Below, one piece after another: positions 8,296 through 28,555 of a stretch of DNA of 64,000 bases (position 1 is the stretch's first letter; every line of letters starts with the position of its first letter). The DNA is from Gemmatimonadaceae bacterium (GTDB taxonomy: Bacteria > Gemmatimonadota > Gemmatimonadetes > Gemmatimonadales > Gemmatimonadaceae): NCBI GenBank assembly GCA_019752115.1, contig JAIEMN010000045.1:62001-126000 (forward strand). Direction: 5' to 3'. The notes below the pieces were generated by a model. That model was given only the letters and a program-made list of their open reading frames with translations. It was not told the DNA's origin and did no database searches. The position numbers and the translations under genes were made by a program.

Positions 8296-10320
8296 GTGAC
8301 ACGAATTCTTGGGCTCGTCTCCGTCTGGGTCGCGCTGGCGATCTCGGTGTACGGGCTGGTCGCGCTGATCGGTGGGCTCGCCAAGCAGCGCACGGCGTGG
8401 GTGGCGAGTGGTCTCCAGGCCGTCTACGTGAACTTTGCGCTGTTGAGTGTGTCGGCGGCGGCGATGATCTACGCACTCGTCACGCATGACTTCAGTGTGG
8501 GGTACGTGGCGCAGGTGGGCAGTCGCTCGACGCCCACGCTCTACACGATCATTTCACTGTGGGGCGCGCTCGAAGGCTCCATCCTCTTCTGGGGATGGGT
8601 GCTGGCGATGTACAGCGCCATCGTGGTGTACACCAATCGCCGCCGACCGGGTGGGCTCGTGCCCTGGTCGGCGGTCGCGTTGCTGACGGTCGGGTTGTTC
8701 TTCTACATCCTGCTCGTGGGCCCGGCGAATCCGTGGGCGCTCATTTCGCCGACGCCGCCGGACGGCCCGGGGCCGAACCCGCTGCTGCAGAACCACATCC
8801 TGATGGCGGTGCATCCGCCGCTGCTCTATCTGGGCTATGTCGGGATGACGGTACCATTCGCGTTCGCCGTGGGCGCGCTCCTCTCGGGCGAGATTGCCAA
8901 GGATGACTGGATTCGCCTCACACGCCGGTGGACGCTGAGTGCGTGGGCGTTCCTGTCGCTCGCCATCATCGCCGGGATGTGGTGGTCGTACGAAGTGCTG
9001 GGCTGGGGTGGCTACTGGGCGTGGGATCCCGTCGAGAACGCGTCGTTCATGCCGTGGCTCACGAGCACCGCGTTCCTGCACTCGGTGATGGTGCAGGAGC
9101 GGCGCGGGATGCTGAAGCTGTGGAACGTGAACCTCATTGTGGGCACGTTCCTGCTCACGATCCTTGGCACGTTCCTCACGCGCTCGGGCATCATTTCGTC
9201 GGTGCATGCGTTCACGACCGGCACGATCGGCTACTTCTTCCTTGGCTTCATCGCCTTCTGCCTGGTCGCGTCACTCATCCTGGTGGCGGGCAACAGCGCG
9301 GGGTTGCGCAGTGAAGGGCAGCTCGACGCGATGGCGTCGCGCGAAACGGTGTTCCTGTTCAACAACCTGCTGCTGACGGGCTTCACGCTGGTCGTGATCC
9401 TCGGCACGCTGTTCCCGCTGGTCGCCGAGGCGATCAAGGGCGCGAAGGTCACGGTGGGTGCGCCGTTCTTCAACAAGATGTCGATTCCGATCTGCGTGGC
9501 CCTCCTGTTCCTGATGGGCGTGGGGCCGAGCCTGCCGTGGAAGGCCGCGACGGACGCGCAGGTGCGAAAGGCGTTTCTGCTGCCGAGCATCGTGGCGGCG
9601 ATTGTCGCGGTGCTGACGCTCGTGTTCGGGCCGAAGGATCCGTACACGGTGCTGGCGTTCGCCTTCGCGTCGTACGCGGCGACGTGCAACCTGCGCGAGT
9701 ATGGCGTGGGCATTGCGGCGCGGCAGAAGGCGCATGGCGAATCGGCACCGGTGGCGTTGGGGCGGCTCGTGGCGGCGAACCAGCGGCGCTACGGCGGCTA
9801 TCTCGCGCACCTCGGCATCATCATGACGGCGGCGGCGATCACCGCGAGCTCGAGCGGCAAGGTCGAGCGTGAGGCGACGCTCAAGCCCGGGCAGACGATG
9901 CAGGTGACCGACGATCTGTCGGTGCGCCTCAAGACGCTCTGGGGGAAGGAAGAGCCGCGGCGTCAGGTGATCGGCGCCGACGTCGAGCTCCTCAAGGGCG
10001 GCAGTGTGAATGGGCTGATCGATCCGCGCATGAATTTCTATCGCACGCAGGAGCAGCCGGTGCCGACGCCGGCGGTGCGCAGCCGGCCGCAGGGCGACAT
10101 CTACATGAACCTCATGGCGTTCACGCCCGACGGGCAGAGCGCCACGATCAAGGTGATTCTGGAGCCGTTCGTGCCGTGGATCTGGTTTGGTGGGCTGATC
10201 GTCGCGCTCGGCGCGGTGGTGAGCGCGTGGCCGACGGCGCGCACGTCGCGCCAGGCGGCGCGCGTGTCGGCGCCGCGGACGGTGCGGGCGCCGAGCGGCC
10301 CGGTTCCTGAGTTCTCCTGA
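8296..10320 (+). CDS. ccmF: Cytochrome c haem lyase subunit CcmF
   Basis: CcmF is the membrane core of the lyase that joins haem to CXXCH cysteines. The 674-residue protein has about 15 predicted spans and the signature GWGGYWAWDPVENASF (about residues 236-251). The conserved His regions NHILMAVHPP (166-175) and TSTAFLHSVMVQE follow the family pattern. The start is GTG at 8296, just after the ccmE stop. The periplasmic loop near residues 500-600 and the last span before a Pro/Arg-rich tail are normal for CcmF. Confidence 0.95.
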   Translation: MTRILGLVSVWVALAISVYGLVALIGGLAKQRTAWVASGLQAVYVNFALLSVSAAAMIYALVTHDFSVGYVAQVGSRSTPTLYTIISLWGALEGSILFWGWVLAMYSAIVVYTNRRRPGGLVPWSAVALLTVGLFFYILLVGPANPWALISPTPPDGPGPNPLLQNHILMAVHPPLLYLGYVGMTVPFAFAVGALLSGEIAKDDWIRLTRRWTLSAWAFLSLAIIAGMWWSYEVLGWGGYWAWDPVENASFMPWLTSTAFLHSVMVQERRGMLKLWNVNLIVGTFLLTILGTFLTRSGIISSVHAFTTGTIGYFFLGFIAFCLVASLILVAGNSAGLRSEGQLDAMASRETVFLFNNLLLTGFTLVVILGTLFPLVAEAIKGAKVTVGAPFFNKMSIPICVALLFLMGVGPSLPWKAATDAQVRKAFLLPSIVAAIVAVLTLVFGPKDPYTVLAFAFASYAATCNLREYGVGIAARQKAHGESAPVALGRLVAANQRRYGGYLAHLGIIMTAAAITASSSGKVEREATLKPGQTMQVTDDLSVRLKTLWGKEEPRRQVIGADVELLKGGSVNGLIDPRMNFYRTQEQPVPTPAVRSRPQGDIYMNLMAFTPDGQSATIKVILEPFVPWIWFGGLIVALGAVVSAWPTARTSRQAARVSAPRTVRAPSGPVPEFS

Positions 10321-10344
10321 TTTCTCCTGAGGGTTGAGGTCGAT

Positions 10345-10965
10345 ATGGACTGGAAGCGCGCGTTCATGGTGACGGGGGCCATCGGGGCCCCGTTCATCGC
10401 GCTGCTCGCCTTTGGGATGACCCGCGATCCGCGGCAGATCCCGTCGCCGCTGCCGGGCAAGGCGGCGCCGACGTGGACGCACGAGGTGTTCGCCCCGGGC
10501 GCGGATCCCGCGCAGCAGCGCACAGTGGGCGACACGGTGCGGCTCGCTGATCTCAAGGGCAAAGTGGTGGTGGTGAACTTCTGGGCCTCGTGGTGCCTGG
10601 CCTGCCGCGATGAGCATGCCGATCTCTCGGAAGCGGCGCAGCAGCTCGCGTCGCGGGGCGTGAAGGTGTTCGGCATGCTCTACAACGACCAGCCGGCGAA
10701 CGGCGTGCGCTGGATTGCCGACATGGGCGGACAGTCGTATCCGTCACTCACCGATCCGGGCGCGCGCACGGCCATCGATTACGGCCTCTACGGCGTGCCG
10801 GAGACGTTCGTGATCGATCAGACGGGGAAGGTGGCGCACAAGTTCATCGGGCCCGTGACCGCCACGGCGCTCATAGCGAAGGTCGATTCGGTGCTCAAGG
10901 CTGGTGGTGCGGGCGGTGCCGATAGTGCCGCCAAGACGGCCGTGCCGGCCAAGGGAGCCCCGTGA
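10345..10965 (+). CDS. ccmG: Thiol-disulfide oxidoreductase CcmG/DsbE
   Basis: The 206-residue protein has an N-terminal signal anchor (about residues 7-24) and a periplasmic thioredoxin fold. The active site is WCLAC (Cys84 and Cys87), where many CcmG proteins have WCxPC. A conserved GVPETFVID cis-proline segment is present. The likely role is to keep apocytochrome CXXCH or CcmH cysteines reduced for haem ligation. An Ala/Gly-rich tail follows the domain. Its stop overlaps the start of ccmH. Confidence 0.9.
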   Translation: MDWKRAFMVTGAIGAPFIALLAFGMTRDPRQIPSPLPGKAAPTWTHEVFAPGADPAQQRTVGDTVRLADLKGKVVVVNFWASWCLACRDEHADLSEAAQQLASRGVKVFGMLYNDQPANGVRWIADMGGQSYPSLTDPGARTAIDYGLYGVPETFVIDQTGKVAHKFIGPVTATALIAKVDSVLKAGGAGGADSAAKTAVPAKGAP

Positions 10966-11498
10966 TGCGCCGCCTTCGCCTGGCTGTGATGGCGGTGCTC
11001 GCGTTGAGTGTGAGCACCACCGCCCCGCGCGCGTTCGCGCAGGGACAGACGGTGACCGGCGCGGTGGAGACGTCGCCCGGTGGCACCACGAACGTGCCGA
11101 TCCCCGGCGCCGATACCGTGCTCGACCGCCGCGTGCGTGATGTGTCGCAGCGGCTGCGCTGCCCGGTGTGTCAGGGGGAAAGCATCCAGGAGTCGCCTGC
11201 GGAACTCGCCGCGCAGATGAAGGGCGTGGTGCGCGAACAGCTCGCGGCGGGCAAGAGCGAGCAGGATGTGCTGAATTACTTCCTCGCGAAGTACGGCGAC
11301 TGGATCCTGCTCGAGCCGCGCGCCGAAGGGATCAACCTGCTGGTGTACTGGATCCCGGTGATCTTCATGCTCATCGGTGGCGTGGTGCTCTTCATGACGG
11401 TGAAGAAGTGGATCAAGCCACGACCGGTTGCTGGCGCTGCGGACGACGTGGCGCCTGATGCCGCCGCGCCGGCGGGTGCGGAGCTCAATCACGTGTGA
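10965..11498 (+). CDS. ccmH: Cytochrome c biogenesis protein CcmH
   Basis: The protein has 177 residues from ATG 10965. It begins with a signal peptide ending near RAFAQG and carries the CcmH/CycL active site RLRCPVCQGESI (Cys66 and Cys69). One C-terminal span (LLVYWIPVIFMLIGGVVLF) anchors the domain in the periplasm. CcmH handles apocytochrome thiols and works with CcmF. ATG 10965 is chosen over the overlapping GTG at 10962 because the GGAG at about 10954 sits at better spacing for it. No CcmI-type TPR extension is present; this is the short form. A long hairpin follows. Confidence 0.92.
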   Translation: MRRLRLAVMAVLALSVSTTAPRAFAQGQTVTGAVETSPGGTTNVPIPGADTVLDRRVRDVSQRLRCPVCQGESIQESPAELAAQMKGVVREQLAAGKSEQDVLNYFLAKYGDWILLEPRAEGINLLVYWIPVIFMLIGGVVLFMTVKKWIKPRPVAGAADDVAPDAAAPAGAELNHV

Positions 11499-11615: not shown

Positions 11616-11825
11616 CCGTTGCGTTCTTTGTTAGGACCGATCGGTACTAGTGTGTCAATGCGACCCGACATTCCTAATGAGCCCTGTACCGTAGTACTAC
11701 GTAATTCACGGGAATCTTGACGTACTTGTACGGGGTTTCCCTGATAGTACGACTGGCGCCGAAGCGTCATATCAGCACCGAGGGAAGAGGGACACGATTC
11801 TTTCAACGCTGATGTGAGGGTTACC
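11616..11825 (+). promoter_or_regulatory. Upstream region of the multihaem cytochrome operon, with a 12-bp palindrome
   Basis: This 210-bp stretch has no gene and is less GC-rich than its surroundings. It contains a perfect palindrome CGTAGTACTACG at 11690-11701. A possible -35 box TTGACG is at 11717-11722, but the best -10 candidate (GATAGT, 11743-11748) is weak and 20 bases away, so the promoter is not firmly placed. The palindrome 15 bases upstream of the -35 candidate could be an operator. The first gene begins at ATG 11826. Confidence 0.4.
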
Positions 11826-13328
11826 ATGCGCACGCTAAAGGCAACACTGGGCGGACTGTCCGCCGCCCTGCTGATGGCCGCGGCGCTCAGTGGATGTGCC
11901 GACGACAAGATCGTTTATCGGGACAAACCGCTGTTCGAGACGCCAGCCGCCACGGCGGCAGGGTTCATCGGGTACCAGTCCACGACGAGCAAGACGCCGA
12001 CCTGCGGCGCCTGCCACGTTGAGGTGCTGGGGGAGTGGAAGGAAACGAAACACGCTGGCGCGTGGGCCACCTTGCAGGCGAACGCCGGCAAGAAGGGCTA
12101 TTGCGAGGCGTGCCACTCGGTCAACAACAAGGGCAACGGCGCCGCCGATACCCTGACCGGCTGGAATACCACGAAGGACGCGCGCTATCAGGACGTGCAG
12201 TGCGAATCGTGCCATGGTGCCGGCACGACGCACATCACGAACCCCACCAAGGCCAACGTCCCGCTCGTGTCGCTCAAGGCGTCGAGTGGCTTCTCGAACG
12301 GCTGCGGTGCCTGCCACAACGGAACGCACTACCCGTTCTTTGACGAGTGGAAGCTCTCCGGCCACGGCACGCTTGCGCTGTCCAAGGGCGGGGCGTGGGG
12401 CGCGCGGGCGGACTCCTCGTACTGCCAGGGTTGCCACACGGGCCAGGGCGCGTTGGCGAACTGGGGTGTGGCCCAGCGCACGAACTACAAGGAAAAGGCG
12501 AAGGGCCCGGGCGATACGCTCACGATCACGTGCGCGATCTGCCACGACCCGCATGCCAAGAACAACTCCGGCCAGCTCCGGTTCTCGATCTCGGTGAACA
12601 ACACCGAACTGAACCTGTGCATGAAGTGCCACAACCGTCGCAGTGTCCCCGACCCGACGTCGTCACGTGCGGCCCACTCGCCGGAAGGCGCGCTGCTCAC
12701 GGGTGAATTCGGCTGGGTGCCGCCGGGCATGGAACTGCCGGCTGGGGTCACCAAGATCACGACGACGCACGGCTCGAGCGCGAATCCGCGTCTCTGCGCC
12801 GGGTGCCACGTGGCCAAGTGGACCGTCACCGACGCAACGGGCAACTTCCAGACGAATGTCACCGGTCACCGCTTCCTCCCGACGCCCTGCGTGAATGCGA
12901 ACGGTGCCCCGACCACGGCGCAGCCGGCCGCCGGCGCGGACTGTGCTTCCGGTTCGACCCGTTCCTTCAAGACGTGCGTCGCCAGTGGCTGCCACGGCAG
13001 CCAGACAGCCGCGGCCAGCGCGGAAGCGATCGCCGAGAATCGCGTCAAGACGCTCGCCATCGAAGTGAATCGCCTCGTGGCCCTCGTGAAGGCCCAGAAG
13101 CCGACCGAGTTCAGCACGACCGACAACAAGATCACGACGGCGGAAGGCGCGGCCTTCAACTCCGGCTCGGTCTATAACGCCACCACCGGCGCGGCCACCG
13201 CCGCGGTCATCCACAACCCGTACCTCGTCGAAGCGCTGCTCACGTCGAGCATCGCGCAGCTGAAGAAGGATTACGGCGTCGCGGTGACGGCGGGGCTCGA
13301 TCTCAGCAACACGTTCCTCAAGCAGTAA
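11826..13328 (+). CDS. Nine-haem c-type cytochrome lipoprotein
   Basis: From ATG 11826 the protein has 500 residues (a GTG at 11814 gives a slightly longer form). A lipoprotein signal ends LSGC with Cys24 as the lipidated residue. Eight CXXCH motifs are visible (CGACH twice, CEACH, CESCH, CQGCH, CAICH, CMKCH, CAGCH) plus one CX4CH (CVASGCH), giving nine probable haems. The last 120 residues have no haem motif and are mostly helical. Lipid anchoring and haem number suggest an extracytoplasmic, possibly outer-membrane, electron carrier. It begins the cluster that includes the barrel and two further multihaem cytochromes. Partner and substrate are unknown. Confidence 0.85.
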   Translation: MRTLKATLGGLSAALLMAAALSGCADDKIVYRDKPLFETPAATAAGFIGYQSTTSKTPTCGACHVEVLGEWKETKHAGAWATLQANAGKKGYCEACHSVNNKGNGAADTLTGWNTTKDARYQDVQCESCHGAGTTHITNPTKANVPLVSLKASSGFSNGCGACHNGTHYPFFDEWKLSGHGTLALSKGGAWGARADSSYCQGCHTGQGALANWGVAQRTNYKEKAKGPGDTLTITCAICHDPHAKNNSGQLRFSISVNNTELNLCMKCHNRRSVPDPTSSRAAHSPEGALLTGEFGWVPPGMELPAGVTKITTTHGSSANPRLCAGCHVAKWTVTDATGNFQTNVTGHRFLPTPCVNANGAPTTAQPAAGADCASGSTRSFKTCVASGCHGSQTAAASAEAIAENRVKTLAIEVNRLVALVKAQKPTEFSTTDNKITTAEGAAFNSGSVYNATTGAATAAVIHNPYLVEALLTSSIAQLKKDYGVAVTAGLDLSNTFLKQ

Positions 13329-13454
13329 CTCGTAGCGACGGTCGGTGCGGTGATGAGCCGCACCGACCACGGTAGGTGCAGGACACGACGGTGCGTCGGG
13401 AAGGGCCGTGTCGGGCCCGCCCGGCGCACTGGAGTAATCACCCCCGAGAACGGT

Positions 13455-15557
13455 ATGCAAACAGCAGGCGTCAGCCCCGGACTCTCCGCCGGAATCCCGA
13501 TGGGACTCCCGCACGGACTCCTCACCCAGGCCGCCACCCTCGCCGACTCTGCGGCGAACGGGGCGGCGTCCGCACATGGGGGCGTGAATCCCGAACTCGT
13601 CGTGAAGAACCCGGTTCCGGGCTTCATCGGCCAGATGCTGCAGTTCGGGTTCAACCTGCCGGCCTGGGCGCAAGCGAGCCTCGCGGCCGTCGGCGCGCTC
13701 GTTGGCGCCGTCGTGCTGTTCCTGGTCTGGAAGAATCGCGATGCCATCATGGCGTGGTTCAACACGCGCTCGAATGGCTACAAGATGGGACTCCTCGCGA
13801 TGGGGAGCTTCATGGTCCTGGGTGGTGCCAGCGCGGCATACGCCGGCAACCACTACATGGAGCACAACAACGACTTCTGCATGAGCTGCCACGTCATGGG
13901 TGATGCGTGGACGGCGTTTCAGAAGTCGGAGCATCGCAAACTCGAGTGCCACCAGTGCCATCGGCAGAGCATGGTGGCCAACGCCAAGCAGCTCTACTTC
14001 TGGATCGCCGAGCGCCCGAGCGAGATTCCGGAGCACGCGAAAGTCCCCACGAAGATCTGCTCGGAATGCCATGTGCAGAGCCGCGCCGACAGCGGCTGGA
14101 AGCGCATCATTCGCACCGCCGGTCACCGGCTCCACCTGGAGAGTGACTCGAGCGCGCTCAAGGAAGTCGCGTGCGTGACGTGCCACGGTCAGGAAGTGCA
14201 CCGCTTCAAGCCCGTCGACAAGACGTGCGGCCAGAGCGGGTGCCACCAGCCGAAGGACACCAAGATCGTCCTCGGCTCGATGGCCGGGCAGACGTCGCAG
14301 CACTGCACCGGGTGTCACACCTTTACGCGCGTCATCCCCGAAAACATTTCGATCGATTCGACGCGGCAGTATCTCAAGCCCACGGGTGGCCCGAAGAGCT
14401 GCTTCGGCTGCCACAAGATGCAGGACAAACTCAAGGGCTTCAACGTCGACGACGACCGGGGCCACAAGGGCGTTTGCGGCACGTGCCACAACCCGCACAC
14501 GCAGACGGTGCCCAAGATGGCGTACCAGAGCTGCGCGCAGGCTGGGTGCCACGCCGACATCGCCACCAAGAACGCATTCCACGCCAAGAGTGGCAAGCAC
14601 AGCTCGCCCGAATGCGGGCAGTGCCACCAGGCGCACACGTGGAAGCCGATCGGCACGCAGTGCATCGACTGCCACAAGAACATCCAGAACAACGACGCCA
14701 AGCCGACTACGGCCAACCAGAAGAAATCGGCGGCCAATGACGATGGGGCCGGTGCCGACAACGCGGCGCATGCACTTCTGCGCCCGATCGCGCATCGCGT
14801 GGACACGCCGGTGCGCCGCGGTCGCGCGGCGCGGCATGTGGGCCTCGCCCATCGGGTGCGTCTTCAAGCCGCTCGACGCGCCGTAGCGCTGCGCCAGGTA
14901 CGCTGGCAGGAGCCGGCCACGGCGCAGCCCCCGGCCACGCAGAAGCCGGCCGCGACGCTCGGCAAGCCCAAGGATTCACCCACATTCTCGCACAAGACGC
15001 ACAAGGTGCTCGCCTGCAGCGGGTGCCACAGCAGCAGCAACGGCACGCTCCTGGTGAAAACCAAGACCGATTGCGCGAGCTGCCATCATGCCGCCGAACG
15101 CCCCACCGCGTGCGAAGGCTGCCATGTGGTGAAGAAGACCCTCGACAAGGCCATCACGAAGACGGTGAGCATGCGCACCAGCGCCAACACGGCGGCCAAG
15201 AGCCGTACGCTCACCTTCAACCACGTGAAGCACCGCGATCTCGACTGCAAAGGGTGCCATACGAACGGCATTCTGTTGGGTGTCACGAAGGATTGCCTGT
15301 CGTGTCACACCGAGCATCACGAGCCCGACCGCGCGTGCGCGAGCTGCCACACGCCGGCCAAGACGCTGCATCAGCGCGCCTCGCATGACGGATGCGCCGG
15401 TGCCGGCTGCCACAGCAATGCCGCCGTGCTCGCGCTGCCGCCGTCGCGCACGACCTGCCTCGTGTGCCACACGGAGCAGCAGACGCACAAACCCAAGCGC
15501 GAGTGCGCCGAGTGCCACGCGGTGACGTGGACGCCCACCGCACGCGGATCGCGGTGA
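13455..15557 (+). CDS. Twenty-haem membrane cytochrome: NapC/NrfH-like N-terminus joined to further multihaem domains
   Basis: ATG 13455 gives 700 residues. Two hydrophobic spans lie near residues 73-92 and 111-130. They are followed by a tetrahaem block (CMSCH at 142, CHQCH, CSECH, CVTCH) laid out as in NapC/NrfH quinol dehydrogenases. In all there are 17 CXXCH and three CX4CH motifs (CGQSGCH, CAQAGCH, CAGAGCH). The first eleven sites are separated from the last nine by an Arg/Ala-rich, cysteine-free linker of about 70 residues (bases 14740-14960). NapC/NrfH proteins normally have four or five haems, so this is a large fusion; a sequencing or true frameshift in the linker cannot be excluded. 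The likely role is taking electrons from menaquinol to periplasmic cytochromes. Confidence 0.8.
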   Translation: MQTAGVSPGLSAGIPMGLPHGLLTQAATLADSAANGAASAHGGVNPELVVKNPVPGFIGQMLQFGFNLPAWAQASLAAVGALVGAVVLFLVWKNRDAIMAWFNTRSNGYKMGLLAMGSFMVLGGASAAYAGNHYMEHNNDFCMSCHVMGDAWTAFQKSEHRKLECHQCHRQSMVANAKQLYFWIAERPSEIPEHAKVPTKICSECHVQSRADSGWKRIIRTAGHRLHLESDSSALKEVACVTCHGQEVHRFKPVDKTCGQSGCHQPKDTKIVLGSMAGQTSQHCTGCHTFTRVIPENISIDSTRQYLKPTGGPKSCFGCHKMQDKLKGFNVDDDRGHKGVCGTCHNPHTQTVPKMAYQSCAQAGCHADIATKNAFHAKSGKHSSPECGQCHQAHTWKPIGTQCIDCHKNIQNNDAKPTTANQKKSAANDDGAGADNAAHALLRPIAHRVDTPVRRGRAARHVGLAHRVRLQAARRAVALRQVRWQEPATAQPPATQKPAATLGKPKDSPTFSHKTHKVLACSGCHSSSNGTLLVKTKTDCASCHHAAERPTACEGCHVVKKTLDKAITKTVSMRTSANTAAKSRTLTFNHVKHRDLDCKGCHTNGILLGVTKDCLSCHTEHHEPDRACASCHTPAKTLHQRASHDGCAGAGCHSNAAVLALPPSRTTCLVCHTEQQTHKPKRECAECHAVTWTPTARGSR

Positions 15558-15561
15558 TCCC

Positions 15562-17151
15562 ATGCGTGCGCTTCCACTCCCCAGGATCGCCGCCGCGCTG
15601 ACGGCGCTGGCGGTCCTCCCGCTGCATGTCGTGGATGCCCAAGGCGTCCTCGTGCGCGGGACCACGACGGCGAATTTCATCGAACTGCGGGCGATGGTGC
15701 CGGACTCGGTGCCCTTCGCGCAGACCACGCCGGGGCTCTTTGCCCTGCGCCTGCTGAGCAATGGGCTCACCGTGGCGTGCGGCGAAGGCGACGCCTACTG
15801 CAAGTACTATCGCAGCGGCGCAATCACCAGCGCGGTGCCGATGATCCAGGATCTCGACATCAGCGCGTGGGGCCTCGGCCGCGGACTCAGTGTGCACGGC
15901 AGCGTGCGCATCCGCGAGGCGGCCGGTGCCAACGCGCAGCTCTGGCCGCGCGCCAACGATCGCTTCGATGCGCTCACGGCGTATCTGCAGTTCGATCGCC
16001 CCACCTATACCGTGCGCGCCGGTCGGCAGTACACGGGTACCGGACTGGGCGTGTACAACTTTGACGGCGCGTCGCTCACGTGGCGCCCAATGCGCAAAGT
16101 CACGCTGGACGGTTACGCCGGGTACAGCCTGGTGCAGGGGGTGAATGAATCGCTCACCACCAGCGAACTGGCGACGCTCGACGAACTGCCCCCCGATCGC
16201 AACGCGTACCTGCTGGGGGCCCAGCTCCGGGCGCGCCCCACGGCCAGCACGGCCTTTCACACCGTCTATCAGCGCGAACTGCGCGACAATCGCTCGGCGC
16301 TCTATTCCGAACGGCTCGCGATGGACGGCAGCTGGCGGGTGAAGGGCGGCAGCGTGGAAGGGGCGTGGCAGCAGGATCTCGCCATGGGCACGACCAACGA
16401 GCTTCGGCTCCGCCTGCGCGCGCCGTCGGTCAAGCGCACGACCTTCTCGGTGGAAGCGCGCCGCTATCGGCCCTTCTTCGAACTGTGGACGATCTGGGGC
16501 GCGTTCTCGCCGGTGGGCTTTGATGAAGGGCGGGCACAGCTCGGGTGGATCAGCCCGAGCGGCGCGTTCTCGGCGGATGTGCATGGGGCGCGGCGCCGGT
16601 GGCAGGATACCGATGCCGGATTGAGCTTCGCCCCGCTGCGCCGCGATGGCTGGCGCGCCGGTGGCGCGGCCGGGTGGCGGTTTGCACCAGCGTGGCATAT
16701 GAACGGCAGCTACAGCGCCGACATTGGCGCCGGCGCGTCGCGTACCGAAGGCGATCTTGGCCTGCACTACACGCGTGGTACGGTGTACGTGGGCGCCAAC
16801 GCGACGGCCTTCCAGAGCATTTATGAGTTCCGCGTCGGGACGGGCCGCGTGGTCGGCTTTGGCGGCGACGCCGGCTGGCAGATCGCGCCCGACCTGCGGC
16901 TCAATGCCTCAGCCACGGCGTATCGGCAGATGGCGAAGAACGCGCTGCCGAGTACGGACTGGACGCAGCGGCGCGCCACGATGCGGCTCGAGTGGACGGT
17001 GGGTGGCGATCCGGGCGTGCGCGGGCTGAGTGCCGCGGCGCGCAAGATGGCGGCCCGTGAGCGCGGATCGCAGGAGCTGGCGCGCTTTGGCGGCATGACG
17101 ACGCGCACGCTGCCGGCCGCCTCGTCGTCGGCGCCGGAGCGTCAGCCATGA
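15562..17151 (+). CDS. Outer-membrane beta-barrel protein of the cytochrome cluster
   Basis: The 529-residue protein has a signal peptide ending near VVDAQG. The rest is rich in alternating aromatic/polar strands of 9-12 residues (YTVRAGRQYTGTGLGVYNF; VTLDGYAGYSLVQG; GTVYVGANATAF), typical of an outer-membrane barrel. No haem motif is present. Two cysteines occur in an early loop (VACGEGDAYCKYY). It is 4 bp after the 20-haem gene and overlaps the start of the 16-haem gene (ATGA, 17148-17151). A barrel between periplasmic multihaem cytochromes matches the logic of porin-cytochrome conduits such as MtrCAB, but I see no sequence similarity to MtrB; the conduit role is inferred from context. Confidence 0.7.
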   Translation: MRALPLPRIAAALTALAVLPLHVVDAQGVLVRGTTTANFIELRAMVPDSVPFAQTTPGLFALRLLSNGLTVACGEGDAYCKYYRSGAITSAVPMIQDLDISAWGLGRGLSVHGSVRIREAAGANAQLWPRANDRFDALTAYLQFDRPTYTVRAGRQYTGTGLGVYNFDGASLTWRPMRKVTLDGYAGYSLVQGVNESLTTSELATLDELPPDRNAYLLGAQLRARPTASTAFHTVYQRELRDNRSALYSERLAMDGSWRVKGGSVEGAWQQDLAMGTTNELRLRLRAPSVKRTTFSVEARRYRPFFELWTIWGAFSPVGFDEGRAQLGWISPSGAFSADVHGARRRWQDTDAGLSFAPLRRDGWRAGGAAGWRFAPAWHMNGSYSADIGAGASRTEGDLGLHYTRGTVYVGANATAFQSIYEFRVGTGRVVGFGGDAGWQIAPDLRLNASATAYRQMAKNALPSTDWTQRRATMRLEWTVGGDPGVRGLSAAARKMAARERGSQELARFGGMTTRTLPAASSSAPERQP

Positions 17152-18713
17152 TCGCGACCATGATCACGCCCATGATCACCACGCTCAGAAAGGTCTGGTC
17201 GCTTTTCGGCTTTGCGGCCCTGCTGGCGCTGGCCGTGGCTTCTCCGCTCGACGCGCAGGGGCAGCCGGAGAAGTTCCCGCACGCCAAGCACGAGAAGCTC
17301 TTCCCGCAGTGCGCCGGCTGCCACGCCGGTATGACCACGGGCGAGAAGGCAAGGATGTTCCCGGACACCGCGCTCTGCGGTGAGTGCCACAATGCCCGCG
17401 ATCAGAAGAAGGTCGCCTGGCGGGCGCCGGTCCGCACGGCGAGCAATCTCAAGTTCGACCACAACGCGCACAACGATGTGGCGGCCACTGAGGGCACAAC
17501 GTGCAGCACCTGCCATGCGAGCACCGGTGGCAAATGGATGCATGTCGAGCGAGCCAAGCCCGAGCAGTGCATCAGCTGTCACTCGCACAAGGTCAGTACG
17601 CACCTGGCGGCGGACAACCGCTGCAGTACCTGTCACGTGTCGCTCCCGCAGGCCACGGGGCTCACGGTGGCGCGCATCGCGGCGTTCCCCGAGCCGGCGT
17701 CGCATGACGCCAAGGGGTTCGCGACGGCGCACGCGAACGCCGCGAAGGCCTCACCGGCACAGTGCGCGGTGTGTCATGCCAAGGAGACGTGCGCGACGTG
17801 CCATGTGAATGCGAGCGCGGTGGCGAATCGCTACCAGCTGGCCGCCGATGCACGCGTGGCGAGTCTCACGCGCGACAAGCCGTCGCGCTATGTCACGCCG
17901 GCGTCGCACACCAAGGGCGACTTCCTGGCGGCGCATGGTGGGCTGGCGCAAGCGAGCGGCGCGTCCTGCGCGACGTGTCATGCCCGCAGCAGCTGCCAGG
18001 CGTGCCACACCGGCCCGCTCGGTGGCCGCACGGTGACGGACATGCCGGTGCCCGAAGCAGGCGGGGCGAGCGGGGTGCGGCTCAACGCGACGTCGTTGCC
18101 ATGGAAGACCGTCTCCGGCGGCGCGGCCACGGCGCCGGCGATGGTCGCGAGCCGCTTTGCGATGCTCACGCCGATGCGCCCCGACAGCGTGAAGGGGACG
18201 CTCCCGAAGCAGGCGCAGGTGCATCCGGTGGGCTTTGCCCGCACGCACGGTGTGCAGGCGGCCACCGATCGCCCAAGCTGCGAAGGGTGCCACACCAAGC
18301 GCTACTGCGCGCAGTGCCACGCGGGCGAGAGCACGCGGCGCTTCCATCCGGCCAACTTCGCGGCGCGCCATGCCCCTGAAGCCTACGGTCGCGAGACGGA
18401 CTGCGCGCAGTGCCACAGCCGCGAAGTGTTCTGCCGCAGCTGTCACATGCAGCTGGGAATGACCTCCAAGGGCAAGGTCGGCGGCGGATATCACAACGGC
18501 GCGCAGATCTGGATCATCCAGCATGGCCAGGCCGCGCGGCAGGAGCTCCAGAACTGCACCAGCTGCCACCAGCAGCGCGACTGCATGCAGTGCCATTCGA
18601 ATCTGGGACGCAACATCAACCCGCACGGCCCGGGCTTCAACGCGGAGAAGGCGTGGAAGGCCAATCGACTCACGTGCCTGCGGTGTCACCTGAAAGATCC
18701 TCTGGGACGGTGA
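17148..18713 (+). CDS. Sixteen-haem periplasmic c-type cytochrome
   Basis: The 521-residue protein has a signal peptide ending near SPLDAQG and 16 CXXCH motifs: CAGCH, CGECH, CSTCH, CISCH, CSTCH, CAVCH, CATCH, CATCH, CQACH, CEGCH, CAQCH, CAQCH, CRSCH, CTSCH, CMQCH and CLRCH. Several closely spaced pairs (for example CAVCH with CATCH, and CTSCH with CMQCH, 7-8 residues apart) recall the packing of cytochrome c3/c7-type domains. A haem-free stretch lies around residues 285-360. It overlaps the barrel gene by 4 bases and is probably translated together with it, so it may be the cytochrome that docks at or enters the barrel. Confidence 0.87.
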   Translation: MIATMITPMITTLRKVWSLFGFAALLALAVASPLDAQGQPEKFPHAKHEKLFPQCAGCHAGMTTGEKARMFPDTALCGECHNARDQKKVAWRAPVRTASNLKFDHNAHNDVAATEGTTCSTCHASTGGKWMHVERAKPEQCISCHSHKVSTHLAADNRCSTCHVSLPQATGLTVARIAAFPEPASHDAKGFATAHANAAKASPAQCAVCHAKETCATCHVNASAVANRYQLAADARVASLTRDKPSRYVTPASHTKGDFLAAHGGLAQASGASCATCHARSSCQACHTGPLGGRTVTDMPVPEAGGASGVRLNATSLPWKTVSGGAATAPAMVASRFAMLTPMRPDSVKGTLPKQAQVHPVGFARTHGVQAATDRPSCEGCHTKRYCAQCHAGESTRRFHPANFAARHAPEAYGRETDCAQCHSREVFCRSCHMQLGMTSKGKVGGGYHNGAQIWIIQHGQAARQELQNCTSCHQQRDCMQCHSNLGRNINPHGPGFNAEKAWKANRLTCLRCHLKDPLGR

Positions 18714-18720
18714 GGACACG

Positions 18721-19185
18721 ATGACCATCACCCTGCGTACTGCCGCGAGCCTGACTGCGCTCGCTTTCCTTGGCGCCTGTGCGGGCCCTGACACACCGAA
18801 CACGCTGCCGCTTGGCGCGGGCGGTTCGTCAGGGGCGTCGTCGCCCAAGCTGCCGCTGGCCGTCATGGCCGCGCTCAACTCAGGCAACAGCGCGATGCGT
18901 GCCGACGATTATCCGCGCGCCATTGCCCAATACCGTGCCGCCACCGCCGGCGCCCCCGATCACCCCGCGCCCTGGTTCGGCCTCTACATGGCGGCGAAGG
19001 AAGCCAACAACGTCGCACTCGCCGACAGCGCGATGGTCGTCGTACGGCGCCTCACCGCCGACTCGTCCGTGCTCCCCGCCCACAAGGAAGTTGCCGACGC
19101 CGCGATGCCGCCGCATGCGGGGCCGGTTATGCCGGCGGGGCACCCGGCTACGGGGAAGGATGGGGGACCGGTGGGGAAACCTTAG
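18721..19185 (+). CDS. Small lipoprotein with a TPR-like segment
   Basis: The 154-residue protein has a lipoprotein signal ending LGAC (Cys20). A Gly/Ser linker leads to a helix pair NSGNSAMRADDYPRAIAQY and PAPWFGLYMAAKEANNVAL, which looks like one or two tetratricopeptide repeats. The tail is rich in Pro, Gly and His. It starts 7 bp after the 16-haem gene and ends the cluster. A scaffold or assembly role for the cytochrome complex is a guess from position. Confidence 0.65.
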   Translation: MTITLRTAASLTALAFLGACAGPDTPNTLPLGAGGSSGASSPKLPLAVMAALNSGNSAMRADDYPRAIAQYRAATAGAPDHPAPWFGLYMAAKEANNVALADSAMVVVRRLTADSSVLPAHKEVADAAMPPHAGPVMPAGHPATGKDGGPVGKP

Positions 19186-19522: not shown

Positions 19523-20677
19523 ATGTACAATCCCACCCAACTGCCCTGGCGCAAAGACGAGTCCCTCGTCGAATACCTCGAACAGACCGGGGTGCCACGG
19601 CGGGATTTTCTGAAGTTCTGCGCGGAAATGGCGGTGATGCTCGGGCTCGCCTCGGCGATGACCCCGAAGATTGCGAAGGCGTTGGCCTCCATCAAACGCC
19701 CGCCCGTGGTGTGGCTGTCGCTCCAGGAATGCACCGGCTGCGTCGAGTCGATCCTCCGCTCGTCGACGCCCTCGATCGGTGACCTGCTGCTTGACACGAT
19801 CTCGCTCGACTTCCAGGAGAACCTGATGGCCGCCGCCGGCTTTGCCGCCGAGAAGGCGCTCAAGGATTCGATGGAAGCCAACAAGGGCAAGTACATCCTC
19901 GTCGTCACCGGGTCGATCCCGCGCAATGAAGGCGGGATCTACACCACGATCGCCGGTCGCACGGCCGAAGATCATCTCAAGGAAGCGGCCGCTGGCGCCG
20001 CCGCCATTGTCGCCGTGGGCGCCTGCGCGCACTGGGGCAATGTGCAGGCCGCGAAGCCGAATCCCACCGGCGCGGTGGGCGTGCGCGACATCATCACCGA
20101 CAAGCCGGTCGTGAACATCGCCGGCTGCCCGCCGATCGCCGATGTGATCACGGCAACGCTCGTGCATGTGCTCACCTTCGGGAAGATCCCCGAACTCGAT
20201 CGCGAAGGGCGGCCCAAGTTCGCCTACGGCGCGAAGATTCACGATCAGTGCCCGCGTCGCGCCAACTACGACGCCGGCCAGTTCGTGGAGAAGTTCGACG
20301 ATGAAGCGGCGCGCAACGGCTACTGCCTCTATCACGTCGGCTGCAAGGGCCCCGAGACGTTCTCGCCGTGCCCGATTTTCATGTGGAACAACAAGGAGAG
20401 CTGGCCCATCGGCGCCGGGCATCCGTGCATTGGCTGCACCGAACCGCACTTCTGGGACACGATGACGCCGTTCTACAATCGCCTGCCGAACACCGCGGGC
20501 ATTCCGGTGGAACGCACGGCCGACATCGTAGGTGGCGTCATGACCGCGGCCGCCGTGGGCGGCATCGCCCTCCACGCCGCCGCGACGACCGCGTCGCGCA
20601 TGGGCAAGAAGCAGCTCCCCGTGCACCCGCAGCATGGTGGGTCCGGTCAGGGCGGCAACTCTCCGACTTCCAACTGA
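19523..20677 (+). CDS. hupS: [NiFe] hydrogenase small subunit (group 1, membrane-bound)
   Basis: The small subunit carries electrons from the NiFe site through three Fe-S clusters. The 384-residue protein has a Tat signal (VPRRDFLKF, Arg26-Arg27). The proximal [4Fe-4S] ligands are in ECTGCVES (Cys70, Cys73), VGACAHWG and IAGCPPIAD. Medial and distal cluster ligands lie in YCLYHVGCKG, FSPCPIFMWN and GHPCIGCTEP. A C-terminal span (residues about 340-360) would anchor it in the membrane, facing the periplasm. The proximal motif has Gly where oxygen-tolerant enzymes have a supernumerary Cys (CTCC). Next to it lie the large subunit and a cytochrome b. Confidence 0.95.
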   Translation: MYNPTQLPWRKDESLVEYLEQTGVPRRDFLKFCAEMAVMLGLASAMTPKIAKALASIKRPPVVWLSLQECTGCVESILRSSTPSIGDLLLDTISLDFQENLMAAAGFAAEKALKDSMEANKGKYILVVTGSIPRNEGGIYTTIAGRTAEDHLKEAAAGAAAIVAVGACAHWGNVQAAKPNPTGAVGVRDIITDKPVVNIAGCPPIADVITATLVHVLTFGKIPELDREGRPKFAYGAKIHDQCPRRANYDAGQFVEKFDDEAARNGYCLYHVGCKGPETFSPCPIFMWNNKESWPIGAGHPCIGCTEPHFWDTMTPFYNRLPNTAGIPVERTADIVGGVMTAAAVGGIALHAAATTASRMGKKQLPVHPQHGGSGQGGNSPTSN

Positions 20678-20688
20678 GGATCTGAACC

Positions 20689-22398
20689 ATGGCGGTAACC
20701 AAGTTGGTGGTCGACCCGATCACCCGTATCGAAGGCCATCTTCGCATCGAAGTGCAGGCGGAGAACGGCAAGATCAACAACGCGTGGGCCAGTGCGACGC
20801 AGTTCCGCGGGCTTGAGCTCGTGCTCAAGGGCCGTGATCCGCGCGACGCCTGGGCCTTTGCGCAGCGTATCTGCGGCGTGTGCACGGTCGTGCACGCGGT
20901 CGCGTCGCTCCGCTCGGTCGAGAACGCGCTCGACATCAAGATCCCGGCGCAGGCGCATCTGATTCGCAACCTGATGCTGGGCATGCAGTACATCCACGAC
21001 CACGTCGTGCACTTCTACCATCTCCACGCGCTCGACTGGGTGGATGTGGTGAGCGCGCTCAAGGCGGATGCGGTGGCCGCCGAGAAGATCGCGAAGGGCA
21101 TGTCCGATTGGCCGAACAACAATGCGGTGCGCTTCAAAGCGGTGCAGGATCGCGTCGCCGGCTTCGTGCAGAGTGGCCAGCTGGGCATCTTCACGAACGG
21201 CTACTGGGGCCATCCGGCCTACAAGCTTCCGCCCGAAGTGAACCTCATTGCGGTGTCGCACTACCTCGAGGCGCTCGACTGGCAGCGCGATGTGGTGGCA
21301 CTCCACGCGGTGTTCGGTGGCAAGAATCCGCACCCGAACTTCATCGTGGGCGGCATGGCGTCGCCGATCAATCTGGAAGCGCGCGCCACGATCAACGCCG
21401 ACAAGCTGACCGATGTGAACGCGCTCATCAAGCGCGCGCAGGAATTCGTGGAGAAGGTGTACTGGCCCGATCTGGTGGCCATCGCCGGCTTCTACAAAGA
21501 CTGGGCGGCGATCGGTGGCGGCACCGGCAACTATCTCTGCTACGGCGACCTCCCGAAGACCCCGAACGGCGACGACTTCTACTTCCCGAAGGGCGTCGTG
21601 ATGAACAAGGACCTGTCGAAACTGGTGCCGTTCGATCAGGCCGGTGTCACCGAGCAGATCCACAGCTCGTGGTACGAGTACAGCGGCGGCAACGATTCTG
21701 CGTTGCACCCGTGGGATGGCGAAACGAAGGCAAGCTACACCGGCCCGAAGGCGCCCTATGAATACCTGCAAGATGAGAAGAAGTACTCGTTCATGAAGTC
21801 GCCGCGCTACAACGGCAAGCCCATGGAAGTCGGCCCGCTCGCGCGCATGCTCGTGGGCTACGCCGCCGGCCAGAAGGACATCAAGGCCATTGTAGACACG
21901 ACGCTCAAGGCGCTCAATGTGGGCCCCGAGGCGCTCTTCTCGACGCTCGGCCGGACCGCGGCGCGCGGCATGGAGTCGCTACTGTACGCCAAGCTGATGC
22001 GCGAGTGGTATGACGATCTCGTGACCCGCGTAAAGGGTGGCGACACCACCACGCACAACGGCGAGAAGTGGGACCCGAGCACGTGGCCGAAGGAAGCCAA
22101 GGGCTTCGGCTATCTCGAGGCACCGCGTGGCGCGCTGGGCCACTGGGTCAACATCAAGGACGGCAAGATCGAAAACTATCAGGCCGTCGTGCCGAGCACG
22201 TGGAACTGCTCGCCGCGTGACAAGGACGGCGTGATGGGGCCGTACGAAGCGGCACTCGTGGACAACCATCCGCTGGCCGATCCGGAACGTCCGATCGAGA
22301 TCCTGCGCACCATTCACTCGTTCGATCCGTGCCTCGCCTGCGGCGTGCACGTGCTCGACGCCACCGGCCGCGAGATCACTCAGGTCAAGGTGCAATAA
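20689..22398 (+). CDS. hupL: [NiFe] hydrogenase large subunit
   Basis: This is the catalytic subunit of uptake hydrogenase, oxidising H2 at a NiFe(CN)2CO site. The 569-residue protein has the N-terminal ligand motif RICGVC (Cys62, Cys65) with DPITRIEGH before it. The C-terminal motif is DPCLACGVH (Cys548, Cys551). Cleavage after His554 by the maturation protease would remove a 15-residue peptide beginning VLDATG. All four NiFe-ligand cysteines are present, so the enzyme should be active. It lies 11 bp after the small subunit gene. Confidence 0.96.
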   Translation: MAVTKLVVDPITRIEGHLRIEVQAENGKINNAWASATQFRGLELVLKGRDPRDAWAFAQRICGVCTVVHAVASLRSVENALDIKIPAQAHLIRNLMLGMQYIHDHVVHFYHLHALDWVDVVSALKADAVAAEKIAKGMSDWPNNNAVRFKAVQDRVAGFVQSGQLGIFTNGYWGHPAYKLPPEVNLIAVSHYLEALDWQRDVVALHAVFGGKNPHPNFIVGGMASPINLEARATINADKLTDVNALIKRAQEFVEKVYWPDLVAIAGFYKDWAAIGGGTGNYLCYGDLPKTPNGDDFYFPKGVVMNKDLSKLVPFDQAGVTEQIHSSWYEYSGGNDSALHPWDGETKASYTGPKAPYEYLQDEKKYSFMKSPRYNGKPMEVGPLARMLVGYAAGQKDIKAIVDTTLKALNVGPEALFSTLGRTAARGMESLLYAKLMREWYDDLVTRVKGGDTTTHNGEKWDPSTWPKEAKGFGYLEAPRGALGHWVNIKDGKIENYQAVVPSTWNCSPRDKDGVMGPYEAALVDNHPLADPERPIEILRTIHSFDPCLACGVHVLDATGREITQVKVQ

Positions 22399-22400
22399 CC

Positions 22401-23195
22401 ATGGCGCCGACCATTCAACCCCATGCGGGGCCGCACCGGACGCTCGAACCGCCGGTCGCCCCAGATGCGCCCATCGGCCGGTTGCTTCAGCATCCGGTGC
22501 CACCGGGTCAAGGTGAGTACGAGTGGATCTACCTGTGGCAGTTGCCGCTCCGCATGATGCACTGGGCGGCGGCGGTGAGCATCGTGACGCTGGTGATCAC
22601 CGGCTTCTGGATTGGCCGCCCGTACTTCATGGGCAGTGCGCAGAGCACCAGCACGTTCGGAACACAATACATGCGGCTCGGTCACTTCCTGGCCGGCATG
22701 CTCCTCACGGTGACCGGGATCGTGCGCCTGTACTGGCTGGTGGCGGGCAACCGGTTCGAGCGCTTCCCGGCGCTCTTCCCGGTGCGGCCGCGTGACCTCA
22801 AGAACCTCGTGAAGCAGGCGCGGTTCTACCTGTTCATGCCGCCGAAGCACATGCCTGAGTACATCGGCCACAACCCGATGGCGCAGGTGAGCTATACCAC
22901 GGTGTATCTCGCGGCCGCCCTCATGGTACTCACGGGCTTTGCGCTCTACACCACCACGCATCCGAACGGCTGGATGTACGGCGTGTTCTATCCGATCACG
23001 ACGTTCCTGGGTGGCCTGCAGAACGTGCGCCTCGTGCATCATGTGGCCACATGGTTCTTCCTGATCTTTACACCGGCCCACGTGTATCTCGCGATGCGCG
23101 CCGACGTGATCGAACGAGGCGGCGGGATCTCGCAGATCATCAGCGGCGGCAAATTCGTGCCGATTCACGAAGACTTTGAAGACGCTGAGGGCTGA
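22401..23195 (+). CDS. hupC: Hydrogenase b-type cytochrome subunit
   Basis: From ATG 22401 the protein has 264 residues and four predicted spans. The family start YEWIYLWQLPLRMMHWAA carries a likely haem-ligand His, and further candidates sit in MRLGHFLAGM and RLVHHVATWFF. It passes electrons from the small subunit to the quinone pool. The start at 22401 is just after the large-subunit stop; the open frame extends upstream to 22329, but that would overlap hupL. A Pro-rich tail of about 40 residues precedes the first span. Confidence 0.92.
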   Translation: MAPTIQPHAGPHRTLEPPVAPDAPIGRLLQHPVPPGQGEYEWIYLWQLPLRMMHWAAAVSIVTLVITGFWIGRPYFMGSAQSTSTFGTQYMRLGHFLAGMLLTVTGIVRLYWLVAGNRFERFPALFPVRPRDLKNLVKQARFYLFMPPKHMPEYIGHNPMAQVSYTTVYLAAALMVLTGFALYTTTHPNGWMYGVFYPITTFLGGLQNVRLVHHVATWFFLIFTPAHVYLAMRADVIERGGGISQIISGGKFVPIHEDFEDAEG

Positions 23196-23200
23196 CGGAC

Positions 23201-23782
23201 ATGCTGTCATTCGGACCACGCGGAACCGGTACCGCCATCCTGGGTCTGGGCAACCCGCTCCTCGCCGACGACGCCCTCGGGCTCGTCGCGCTGGAGCGGC
23301 TGCGGGACCAGTACGAGCTCGATGATGCCATCTCGATTCACGACGGTGGCACCTGGGGCATGCAGCTGATGCCCATGATCGAAGACTCGGCGCGCGTGCT
23401 CTTCCTCGATGCCATCGACAAGGGCGAGGCGCCGGGCACGGTGATCCGGCTCGAGGGCGAGGCGATTCCGGCCACGCTCGCAAACATGATCTCGCCGCAC
23501 CAGCTGGATCTGCGCGAAGTGCTGGCCATGACGCGGCTGCGGGGGACGTTCCCCGAAGACGCCGTCGCCCTGGGCGTGCAGCCGGAAACCACGATCACCC
23601 GCGTCGCGCTGTCGGCCAGTGTGGCGGCGCGCGTGGATGACGTGGTGCAGGCGGCCGTAGCCCAGCTCGAAGCGTGGGGCCACACGGTACGGCGGCGGGA
23701 CCCGGCGGAAGCCGACGCGGCGGCACGCGCGCGGTCGGCGATGGTGACCGGCGGGATCGCCGACGTTCTCATGTCGGCGTAA
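23201..23782 (+). CDS. hupD: Hydrogenase maturation endopeptidase (HyaD/HybD type)
   Basis: The protease trims the C-terminus of the large subunit after nickel insertion. The 193-residue protein has the family motifs LGLGNPLLADDALG (Asp nickel-probe region), FLDAID and MISPHQLDLREVL (the His used in Ni sensing). A charged tail of about 30 residues extends beyond the usual 160-residue family length. It sits 5 bp after hupC. Confidence 0.92.
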   Translation: MLSFGPRGTGTAILGLGNPLLADDALGLVALERLRDQYELDDAISIHDGGTWGMQLMPMIEDSARVLFLDAIDKGEAPGTVIRLEGEAIPATLANMISPHQLDLREVLAMTRLRGTFPEDAVALGVQPETTITRVALSASVAARVDDVVQAAVAQLEAWGHTVRRRDPAEADAAARARSAMVTGGIADVLMSA

Positions 23783-23801: not shown

Positions 23802-24110
23802 ATGCATGAACTGAGTCTGGCCCTCGAGATCGCCCGAGTGTTGGAAACGACGATCCCCGCGCCGCAGCTCCCCCAGATCATCACGGTGAATCTGGAGGTG
23901 GGCGAAGACGCGGGGATCGAGATGGCCAACCTGCAATTCTGCCTGGACGCGTTGTTGGGCCAGCCGCCGTTTGCCGGCGCCACCGTGACGGTGACGTCGG
24001 TGGCCGGCGGCAATTTGCGCGTGGGCTATCTGGAGTTGGACGACGAACGAACGGGCGCCGCAGTGGGCGCGCAACCGCACGAGGCGAACGATGGCAGTTC
24101 GGCGCATTGA
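23802..24110 (+). CDS. hypA: HypA-like nickel metallochaperone lacking the zinc-binding cysteines
   Basis: HypA delivers nickel to the hydrogenase large subunit with HypB. The 102-residue protein starts MHELSLALEIA, keeping the Met1-His2-Glu3 nickel site, and has the family strand NLQFCLDALL (only Cys47). The zinc domain with two CxxC motifs, expected around residues 70-95, is absent; the segment instead reads SVAGGNLRVGYLELDDERTG. The gene is complete, has a ribosome site (GGGAGG) and overlaps hypB by 20 bp, so this is not a sequencing truncation at the end. Zinc-linked structural control must be lost or replaced. Confidence 0.8.
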   Translation: MHELSLALEIARVLETTIPAPQLPQIITVNLEVGEDAGIEMANLQFCLDALLGQPPFAGATVTVTSVAGGNLRVGYLELDDERTGAAVGAQPHEANDGSSAH

Positions 24111-24801
24111 AGTCCGCGAGCGGGTCATGGCCCGCAACGATGAACTGGCGAACGTGGTGCGCGGTCGCCTTGACGCCGCCGGCGTCGCCGCGTTCAACCT
24201 CGTCTCGTCCCCGGGCGCCGGAAAGACGACGCTGCTCGAGCGCACCCTCGATGACATCGGCGCACGGATGCGCATGGCCATCGTGACCGGCGACGTGCAG
24301 ACGGAGAACGACGCCGACCGCCTGGCGTCGCACACGGATCAGCTGGTGCAGGCCGTCGTGACGAACGGCGGCTGCCATCTGGATGCCCTGCAGGTCACCG
24401 ATGCCCTCGAGGCGGTGGATATTTCGGACCTCGATCTGCTGATTCTGGAGAACGTCGGCAATCTGGTGTGCCCGGCGAGCTGGGATCTGGGGGAGCGGCA
24501 TCGCATTACGCTCTGCTCGGTGACCGAGGGCGAGGACAAGCCCCTCAAGTATCCGAAGGCGTTCGCACAGGCGGAGCTGGTGCTGCTCACGAAAGTGGAC
24601 CTGTTGCCGTATCTCAAGCTTGACATTGCGAAGCTGGAAGCGAATGTGCGGAAGGTCAGCCCGAACGCTCGCATTCTGCGCGTCTCAGCGGACTCCGGCG
24701 AAGGGATGACCGACTGGTATGCCTATCTCGAGGCAGCCGCCAACGCCGCACGGGCCCGACAGGGCGACGCTCACTTTGCAGACCTCCCCGCTTCCGTTTG
24801 A
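24091..24801 (+). CDS. hypB: Hydrogenase nickel-incorporation GTPase HypB
   Basis: The 236-residue P-loop GTPase has SSPGAGKTTLLE (about residues 39-50), the metal-site segment NGGCHLDA, ILENVGNLVCPASWDLGE, and the guanine-specificity motif LLTKVDLLPY. It lacks the N-terminal CxxCGC and poly-His nickel stores seen in some HypB proteins. It overlaps hypA by 20 bp and the UbiD-like gene by about 26 bp. Genes hypC, hypD, hypE and hypF are not in this window and must lie elsewhere if the enzyme is matured. Confidence 0.93.
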   Translation: MAVRRIEVRERVMARNDELANVVRGRLDAAGVAAFNLVSSPGAGKTTLLERTLDDIGARMRMAIVTGDVQTENDADRLASHTDQLVQAVVTNGGCHLDALQVTDALEAVDISDLDLLILENVGNLVCPASWDLGERHRITLCSVTEGEDKPLKYPKAFAQAELVLLTKVDLLPYLKLDIAKLEANVRKVSPNARILRVSADSGEGMTDWYAYLEAAANAARARQGDAHFADLPASV

Positions 24802-28436: not shown

Positions 28437-28555
28437 ACGTTCCTCTCCCCTCACGGTGGTCTGGGCGAAATATTGGGAGACGCGCGGCGCAGGGCCATAC
28501 GGAGAACACCGACGACATCACGGCCGTCGGCTGAATCGCACCTCGAGGTGAGAAC

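Follow-up and report, generated by a model that had tools for sequence, protein, structure and literature searches.

Gene content of the cytochrome cassette

The window analyzed here, a stretch of 64,000 nucleotides, corresponds to G000:C45:62001-126000 of a Gemmatimonadaceae genome of 5.17 Mb in 83 contigs. It carries a cassette encoding three multihaem cytochromes (c9, c20 and c16), a predicted outer-membrane β-barrel and a small lipoprotein, flanked by genes for cytochrome c maturation and for a [NiFe] hydrogenase:

8296-10320 (+): CcmF-like membrane protein, identified by eye; start of the cytochrome c maturation block (8296..11498)
10345-10965 (+): DsbE/TlpA-like thioredoxin (Pfam/NCBIfam match)
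10962-11498 (+): CcmH (Pfam/NCBIfam match)
11814..13328 (+): c9, nine-haem lipoprotein cytochrome that probably begins at ATG 11826; proposed exit for electrons at the outer surface
13350..15557 (+): c20, 20-haem membrane-anchored cytochrome with an NrfH-like N-terminus and class-III/HmcA-like haem domains; its exact start is uncertain
15562..17151 (+): outer-membrane-type β-barrel, 529 aa, ~20-25 predicted strands; proposed c16 scaffold
17148..18713 (+): c16, 16-haem exported cytochrome, proposed to dock in or thread the barrel
18721..19185 (+): small lipoprotein, conserved accessory, with weak TPR similarity (E ~1e-3)
19523..23195 (+): hyaA-hyaB-hyaC, group-1 [NiFe] uptake hydrogenase with cytochrome b (TIGR00391, PF00374 and TIGR02125 over cut-off)
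23201-23782 (+): hyaD-like maturation protease, open reading frame read by eye
23802-24110 (+): hypA, open reading frame read by eye

Re-reading of the open reading frames confirmed the coordinates and gene order of the original prediction, as well as its description of the genes as close and partly overlapping. The barrel and c16 genes overlap by 4 bases (17148-17151), and the remaining gaps in the cassette measure 21, 4 and 7 bases. TlpA-CcmH genes lie immediately 5′ of c9 at many homologous loci, so that genes for haem attachment adjoin those for the haem proteins, and a homologue of the small lipoprotein is found 3′ of c16 at many loci. Homologues of the hyaD-like gene and of hypA follow hyaC at other loci where a hydrogenase is linked to the cassette. 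UbiD, UbiA and ABC1-kinase genes are situated 3′ of the hydrogenase (24719-30199), possibly providing menaquinone (quinone) synthesis beside a quinol-oxidizing conduit.

The cytochromes, their haems and the barrel

The predicted haem numbers of 9, 20 and 16 held when the motifs were counted against shuffled proteins: c9 contains eight CxxCH and one CX4CH, c20 contains 17 CxxCH and three CX4CH, and c16 contains 16 CxxCH, compared with mean CxxCH counts of 0.03, 0.15 and 0.11 in the respective shuffled sequences. The cassette thus accounts for 45 haems in total. Homologue alignments show as many conserved non-motif histidines as haems in each protein (9/9 in c9, 20/20 in c20 and 16/16 in c16, where all 16 are invariant). 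This equality favours six-coordinate electron-transfer haems, and the capacity for bis-His ligation makes c9, c20 and c16 plausible wires, short of proof. OcwA from Thermincola has enough histidines for bis-His ligation and still contains two open-site haems (PMC6703420), so a histidine count cannot exclude catalysis.

The lipobox cysteine of c9 (Cys28) is invariant among 17 aligned homologues and the +2 residue is never Asp, in agreement with the earlier assignment of c9 as a lipoprotein cytochrome. By the lipobox +2 rule, which was calibrated in E. coli, c9 is predicted to be an outer-membrane lipoprotein; the inner-membrane location that the original prediction had named as evidence against a conduit is not indicated, the Asp+2 signal being absent. 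In profile searches c9 matched 6qvm, which we take to be OmhA (E 1.7e-17), OcwA 6i5b (E 1.6e-15), and then MtrA and cytochrome c554. It also has a Pfam match to MtrC/MtrF domain II/IV. OmhA (Carboxydothermus) and OcwA are the best solved relatives of c9, and OcwA likewise has nine haems. Their hosts are Gram-positive and lack a barrel, however, and c9 differs from OcwA with its two open-site haems in having a conserved distal histidine candidate for each haem.

These relationships bear on the alternative that the cassette encodes a dedicated reductase, in which c9, as a member of an OTR/HAO/NrfA-like superfamily, reduces a soluble oxyanion or a nitrogen or sulfur compound outside the cell or in the periplasm, with the barrel only admitting substrate. 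The c9 profile matches HAO as well as cytochrome c554, and OcwA reduces nitrite and hydroxylamine (PMC6703420). Against this, all nine c9 haems have a possible distal ligand, c9 contains neither CxxCK nor a conserved His-His pair, and 45 haems with a translationally coupled barrel would be excessive for a soluble periplasmic substrate. The original prediction had left room for such an enzyme; because each haem has a conserved candidate distal histidine, we consider it unlikely.

The N-terminus of c20 bears out the earlier view of a NapC/NrfH-like membrane cytochrome: an N-terminal transmembrane helix is followed by a CxxCHxM motif at haem 1, and the profile matches NrfH (2j7a, E 5.6e-8). The motif methionine, Met183, is kept in 15/16 sequences, and the NrfH model TIGR03153 is matched in 15/16 c20 homologues. 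The scores of the window protein are well below the family cut-offs (30.3 vs. 134.2 bits for TIGR03153 and 18.2 vs. 24.1 bits for PF03264), and with 20 haems it is not of tetrahaem size. Its C-terminal part matches HmcA (E 2e-12), so that c20, unlike either NrfH or HmcA, fuses both kinds. The profiles of c20 and c9 also gave weak matches to the MtrA chain. The linker of c20 is variable, yet similarly basic in the nearest relative; a frameshift in this basic linker (residues ~470-530) was considered and rejected, as the flanking haem domains are in frame in all homologues. No other membrane-type NapC/NrfH-like protein was found in this genome, the second PF03264 match being a 6-haem lipoprotein. 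G000:C32 (L068 8828-10108, – strand) encodes a lipoprotein with six haems in which the lipobox is followed by a collagen-like GTNGTNG repeat.

c16 resembles the 16-haem cytochrome HmcA (2e84, E 9e-14), although it falls far short of the family cut-off (27.7 vs. 400 bits on NF045713). The same genome encodes two further, adjacent proteins in which repeated units contain 23 and 49 CxxCH motifs (L030 8391-10532 and 10049-14260, + strand; G000:C4 ~126.4-132.3 kb); a 4Fe-4S/FAD pyridine-nucleotide oxidoreductase is their neighbour (L030 6941-8449). This pair may represent a second haem-rich system.

The earlier identification of a barrel-type protein in the cassette is supported by residue alternation. 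In an alignment of 21 sequences (A1), dyad alternation was 0.267, compared with 0.190 ± 0.014 for shuffled columns (5.5 SD above). At the 0.4 level there were 25 peaks vs. 14.7 expected, and at the 0.5 level 20 vs. 6.9. The cytochrome alignments exhibited little or no β alternation. The 529-aa protein behaves like an outer-membrane β-barrel of ~20-25 strands. The window protein had no match in the PDB, Pfam or NCBIfam, and weak generic outer-membrane protein matches occurred among its homologues. An AlphaFold model from a two-sequence input (pLDDT 28) was not used. The original prediction had treated a TonB receptor as an outcome that would speak against a conduit; no TonB plug or receptor domain in Pfam and no transporter family matched the window barrel, and a single homologue gave E 0.02 to TIGR01783. 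The MtrB/PioB model TIGR03509 likewise did not match the window barrel and reached E 0.047 in one of 21 homologues; a TIGR03509 profile search of the organism's own genome gave no match, but neither did its controls, so this negative carries little weight. A CX6C cysteine pair near the N-terminus of the barrel (residues 73-80, window 15778-15801), perhaps forming a disulfide, is kept in most homologues and missing in family f3.

Conservation, distribution and hydrogenase linkage

Twenty loci from the same taxonomic order contain the cassette or parts of it, the partial ones reflecting contig ends and variants. Nearly all complete loci keep the c9-c20-barrel-c16 order and similar motif counts (CxxCH plus CX4CH: 8 + 1 in c9, 17-19 + 1-3 in c20; none in the barrel; 16 in c16), while barrel identity within the order falls to ~25%. 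Wider sampling revealed the cassette in other families of the class. Its recurrence in the same order at further loci and in other families indicates a real cassette and not a chance arrangement. Outside the class, one further genome gave a weak barrel match of 57 residues only. A plasmid search returned no c20 or barrel matches, and a genome-wide pattern search with c16 returned one close locus only and is uninformative on other phyla.

Among 298 genomes of the phylum, the barrel is present in 84 and c16 in 86; the co-occurrence in other genomes that the original prediction had proposed as a check is seen in 83. c9 was found in 81 (77 with the barrel) and c20 in 67 (65 with the barrel), and the cassette occurs in ~28% of the sampled genomes. 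The barrel is distributed over 57 of 119 genera, and statistics across genomes are inflated by relatedness. The barrel and c16 genes overlap by NTGA in 23 of 25 loci, and the correlation of pairwise distances is highest for this pair (0.87, compared with 0.65-0.83 for the others). Together, the overlap and the distance correlation support a barrel-c16 core.

Some carriers have no c20 or c9, and their barrel is paired with 19- or 21-haem proteins. At L022, L041 and L043 the barrel-c16 core is kept and the adjacent c9 and c20 genes are replaced by genes for ~1000-aa 19-haem and 21-haem proteins, apparently a swapping of conduit modules. Such replacement shows that the partners of the core, inner as well as outer, are modular. 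The 19-haem proteins at these loci (~955-1006 aa) are exported and encoded directly 5′ of the barrel on the – strand (L022 11191-14055, L041 11222-14242, L043 10766-13654). Two other loci contain a tandem duplication of c9 and have lost the adjacent full-length c20 (L012 6177-9385, L058 12494-16019).

The linkage of the cassette to a group-1 [NiFe] hydrogenase was absent from the original prediction, is new here and is recurrent. In the window, the large, small and cytochrome b subunits all scored over cut-off (782.6 bits on PF00374, 466.7 on TIGR00391 and 173 on TIGR02125), and the small subunit, inspected by eye, has CTGC and not the six-Cys O2-tolerant signature. A similar large subunit is present in 50 of the 298 genomes, 43 of which also contain the barrel. 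In seven genomes from three families the hydrogenase and the cassette are no more than ~2 kb apart, the hydrogenase being either 3′ and on the same strand (the window genome, G229, G087 and G161) or divergent and upstream of c9 (G305, G220 and G230); from tlpA through hypA, G229 and the window are colinear. In 11 of the 43 genomes the distance is at most 16 kb, and under a uniform-position model the chance of eleven hydrogenases falling within 20 kb is ~1e-11. The idea that this linkage is specific to the window was rejected when wider sampling found it repeatedly.

A proposed H2-linked electron conduit

We propose that the cassette is probably a porin-cytochrome conduit for extracellular electron transfer that has its own quinol oxidase and is often fed by H2. 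The NrfH-like N-terminus of c20 would oxidize menaquinol at the inner membrane, and electrons would travel along its remaining haems into the periplasm and on to c16, which would either dock in the outer-membrane barrel or pass through it. c9, as a surface lipoprotein, would then release them to an acceptor outside the cell, for example a metal oxide, a humic quinone or a partner cell. In many carriers the group-1 [NiFe] hydrogenase would supply electrons from H2 to the quinone pool. The sequences themselves show the gene set, the haem numbers, the lipobox, the conservation, the gene coupling and the hydrogenase linkage, whereas the topology, the contact between barrel and c16, the direction of electron flow and the acceptor are inferred. 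The quinol-to-outside pathway of the original prediction, with its quinol oxidase, periplasmic wire, barrel and surface cytochrome, is the reading in best agreement with the conservation of the genes, their co-occurrence, their translational coupling and the profile matches.

The layout has several precedents. The OmbB-OmaB-OmcB (Pcc) conduit of Geobacter also clusters a barrel with an exported multihaem cytochrome and an outer-membrane lipoprotein cytochrome. By published strand numbers (Pcc porins are predicted to have 18-22 strands, PMC4245776) the barrels are of similar size, whereas the Geobacter cytochromes have 8 and 12 haems vs. 16 and 9 here, the gene order differs, and the NrfH-like quinol oxidase is inside the cassette only here. 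The Geobacter ExtEFG system combines a 21-strand barrel, lipoprotein and periplasmic cytochromes and a [NiFe] hydrogenase in one transcriptional unit (PMC6148476). It is like the present locus in these parts, including the neighbouring hydrogenase, and unlike it in having 5- and 12-haem cytochromes, a Hox-like hydrogenase in place of group-1 HyaABC, and no 20-haem NrfH-like protein. PCC3 from Leptothrix and Sideroxydans clusters a barrel, extracellular and haem-rich periplasmic cytochromes and an inner-membrane redox protein (PMC5566968); the last is a 5-TM cytochrome-b-like protein vs. the 20-haem NrfH-like cytochrome here (PMC5566968). MtrCAB, MtoAB and PioAB share the overall layout, and the MtrC/MtrF domain match of c9 and the weak MtrA matches of c9 and c20 are points of likeness. 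Nevertheless the cassette is not MtrCAB, as originally judged, because the barrel has no significant TIGR03509 match and the cytochromes, with 16, 20 and 9 haems, are not decahaem MtrA or MtrC; DmsE/MtrA-type models scored far below cut-off. The suggestion of a new type of complex has to be softened, since the porin-cytochrome principle is ordinary; the parts, their distribution and the hydrogenase link are what is new.

The same hardware could be run in reverse, with c9 collecting electrons from Fe(II), Mn(II) or a cathode and c20 reducing the quinone pool. Porin-cytochrome systems are reversible in principle, and MtoAB, PioAB and PCC3 have been proposed for Fe(II) oxidation (PMC5566968). However, menaquinol oxidation is the normal role of NrfH-type modules, the closest relatives of c9 are terminal reductases, and the linked H2-uptake hydrogenase provides a donor that an uptake system does not need, so we regard electron uptake as improbable, about on a par with a dedicated reductase. 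It is more improbable still that the barrel is an unrelated transporter or porin placed by chance in a periplasmic cytochrome operon: homology to known conduit barrels could not be shown, but c16 is present in 83 of the 84 barrel genomes, the NTGA coupling and the top distance correlation join the same two genes, and the barrel has neither a TonB plug domain nor a transporter family match.

A bolder form of the conduit proposal, which we put forward tentatively and hold to be doubtful, is that c20 reaches across most of the periplasm and passes electrons directly to barrel-bound c16. Hydrogenase, menaquinone and the 45-haem assembly would then form a self-contained, carrier-free chain from H2 to the outside. 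This chain would be ancestral in the class, and its barrel would have no relationship to those of known conduits.

Gemmatimonadota, though poorly cultured, are frequent in soils and sediments. No published description of the cassette was found in the literature searched; a mention in the supplements of a 2026 karst study or of the MHCscan conduit lists is possible. For Gemmatimonadetes, the same literature contains a single MtrCAB cluster (PMC8805035) and homologues of CbcL/ImcH (PMC6295460). Hardly any such machinery has been described in this lineage, to which the cassette would contribute a conduit that includes its own quinol oxidase with 20 haems. The cassette also supplies concrete genes and carriers for testing. 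If the proposal is true, Gemmatimonadota would be candidate H2-driven reducers of metals, humic substances or electrodes.
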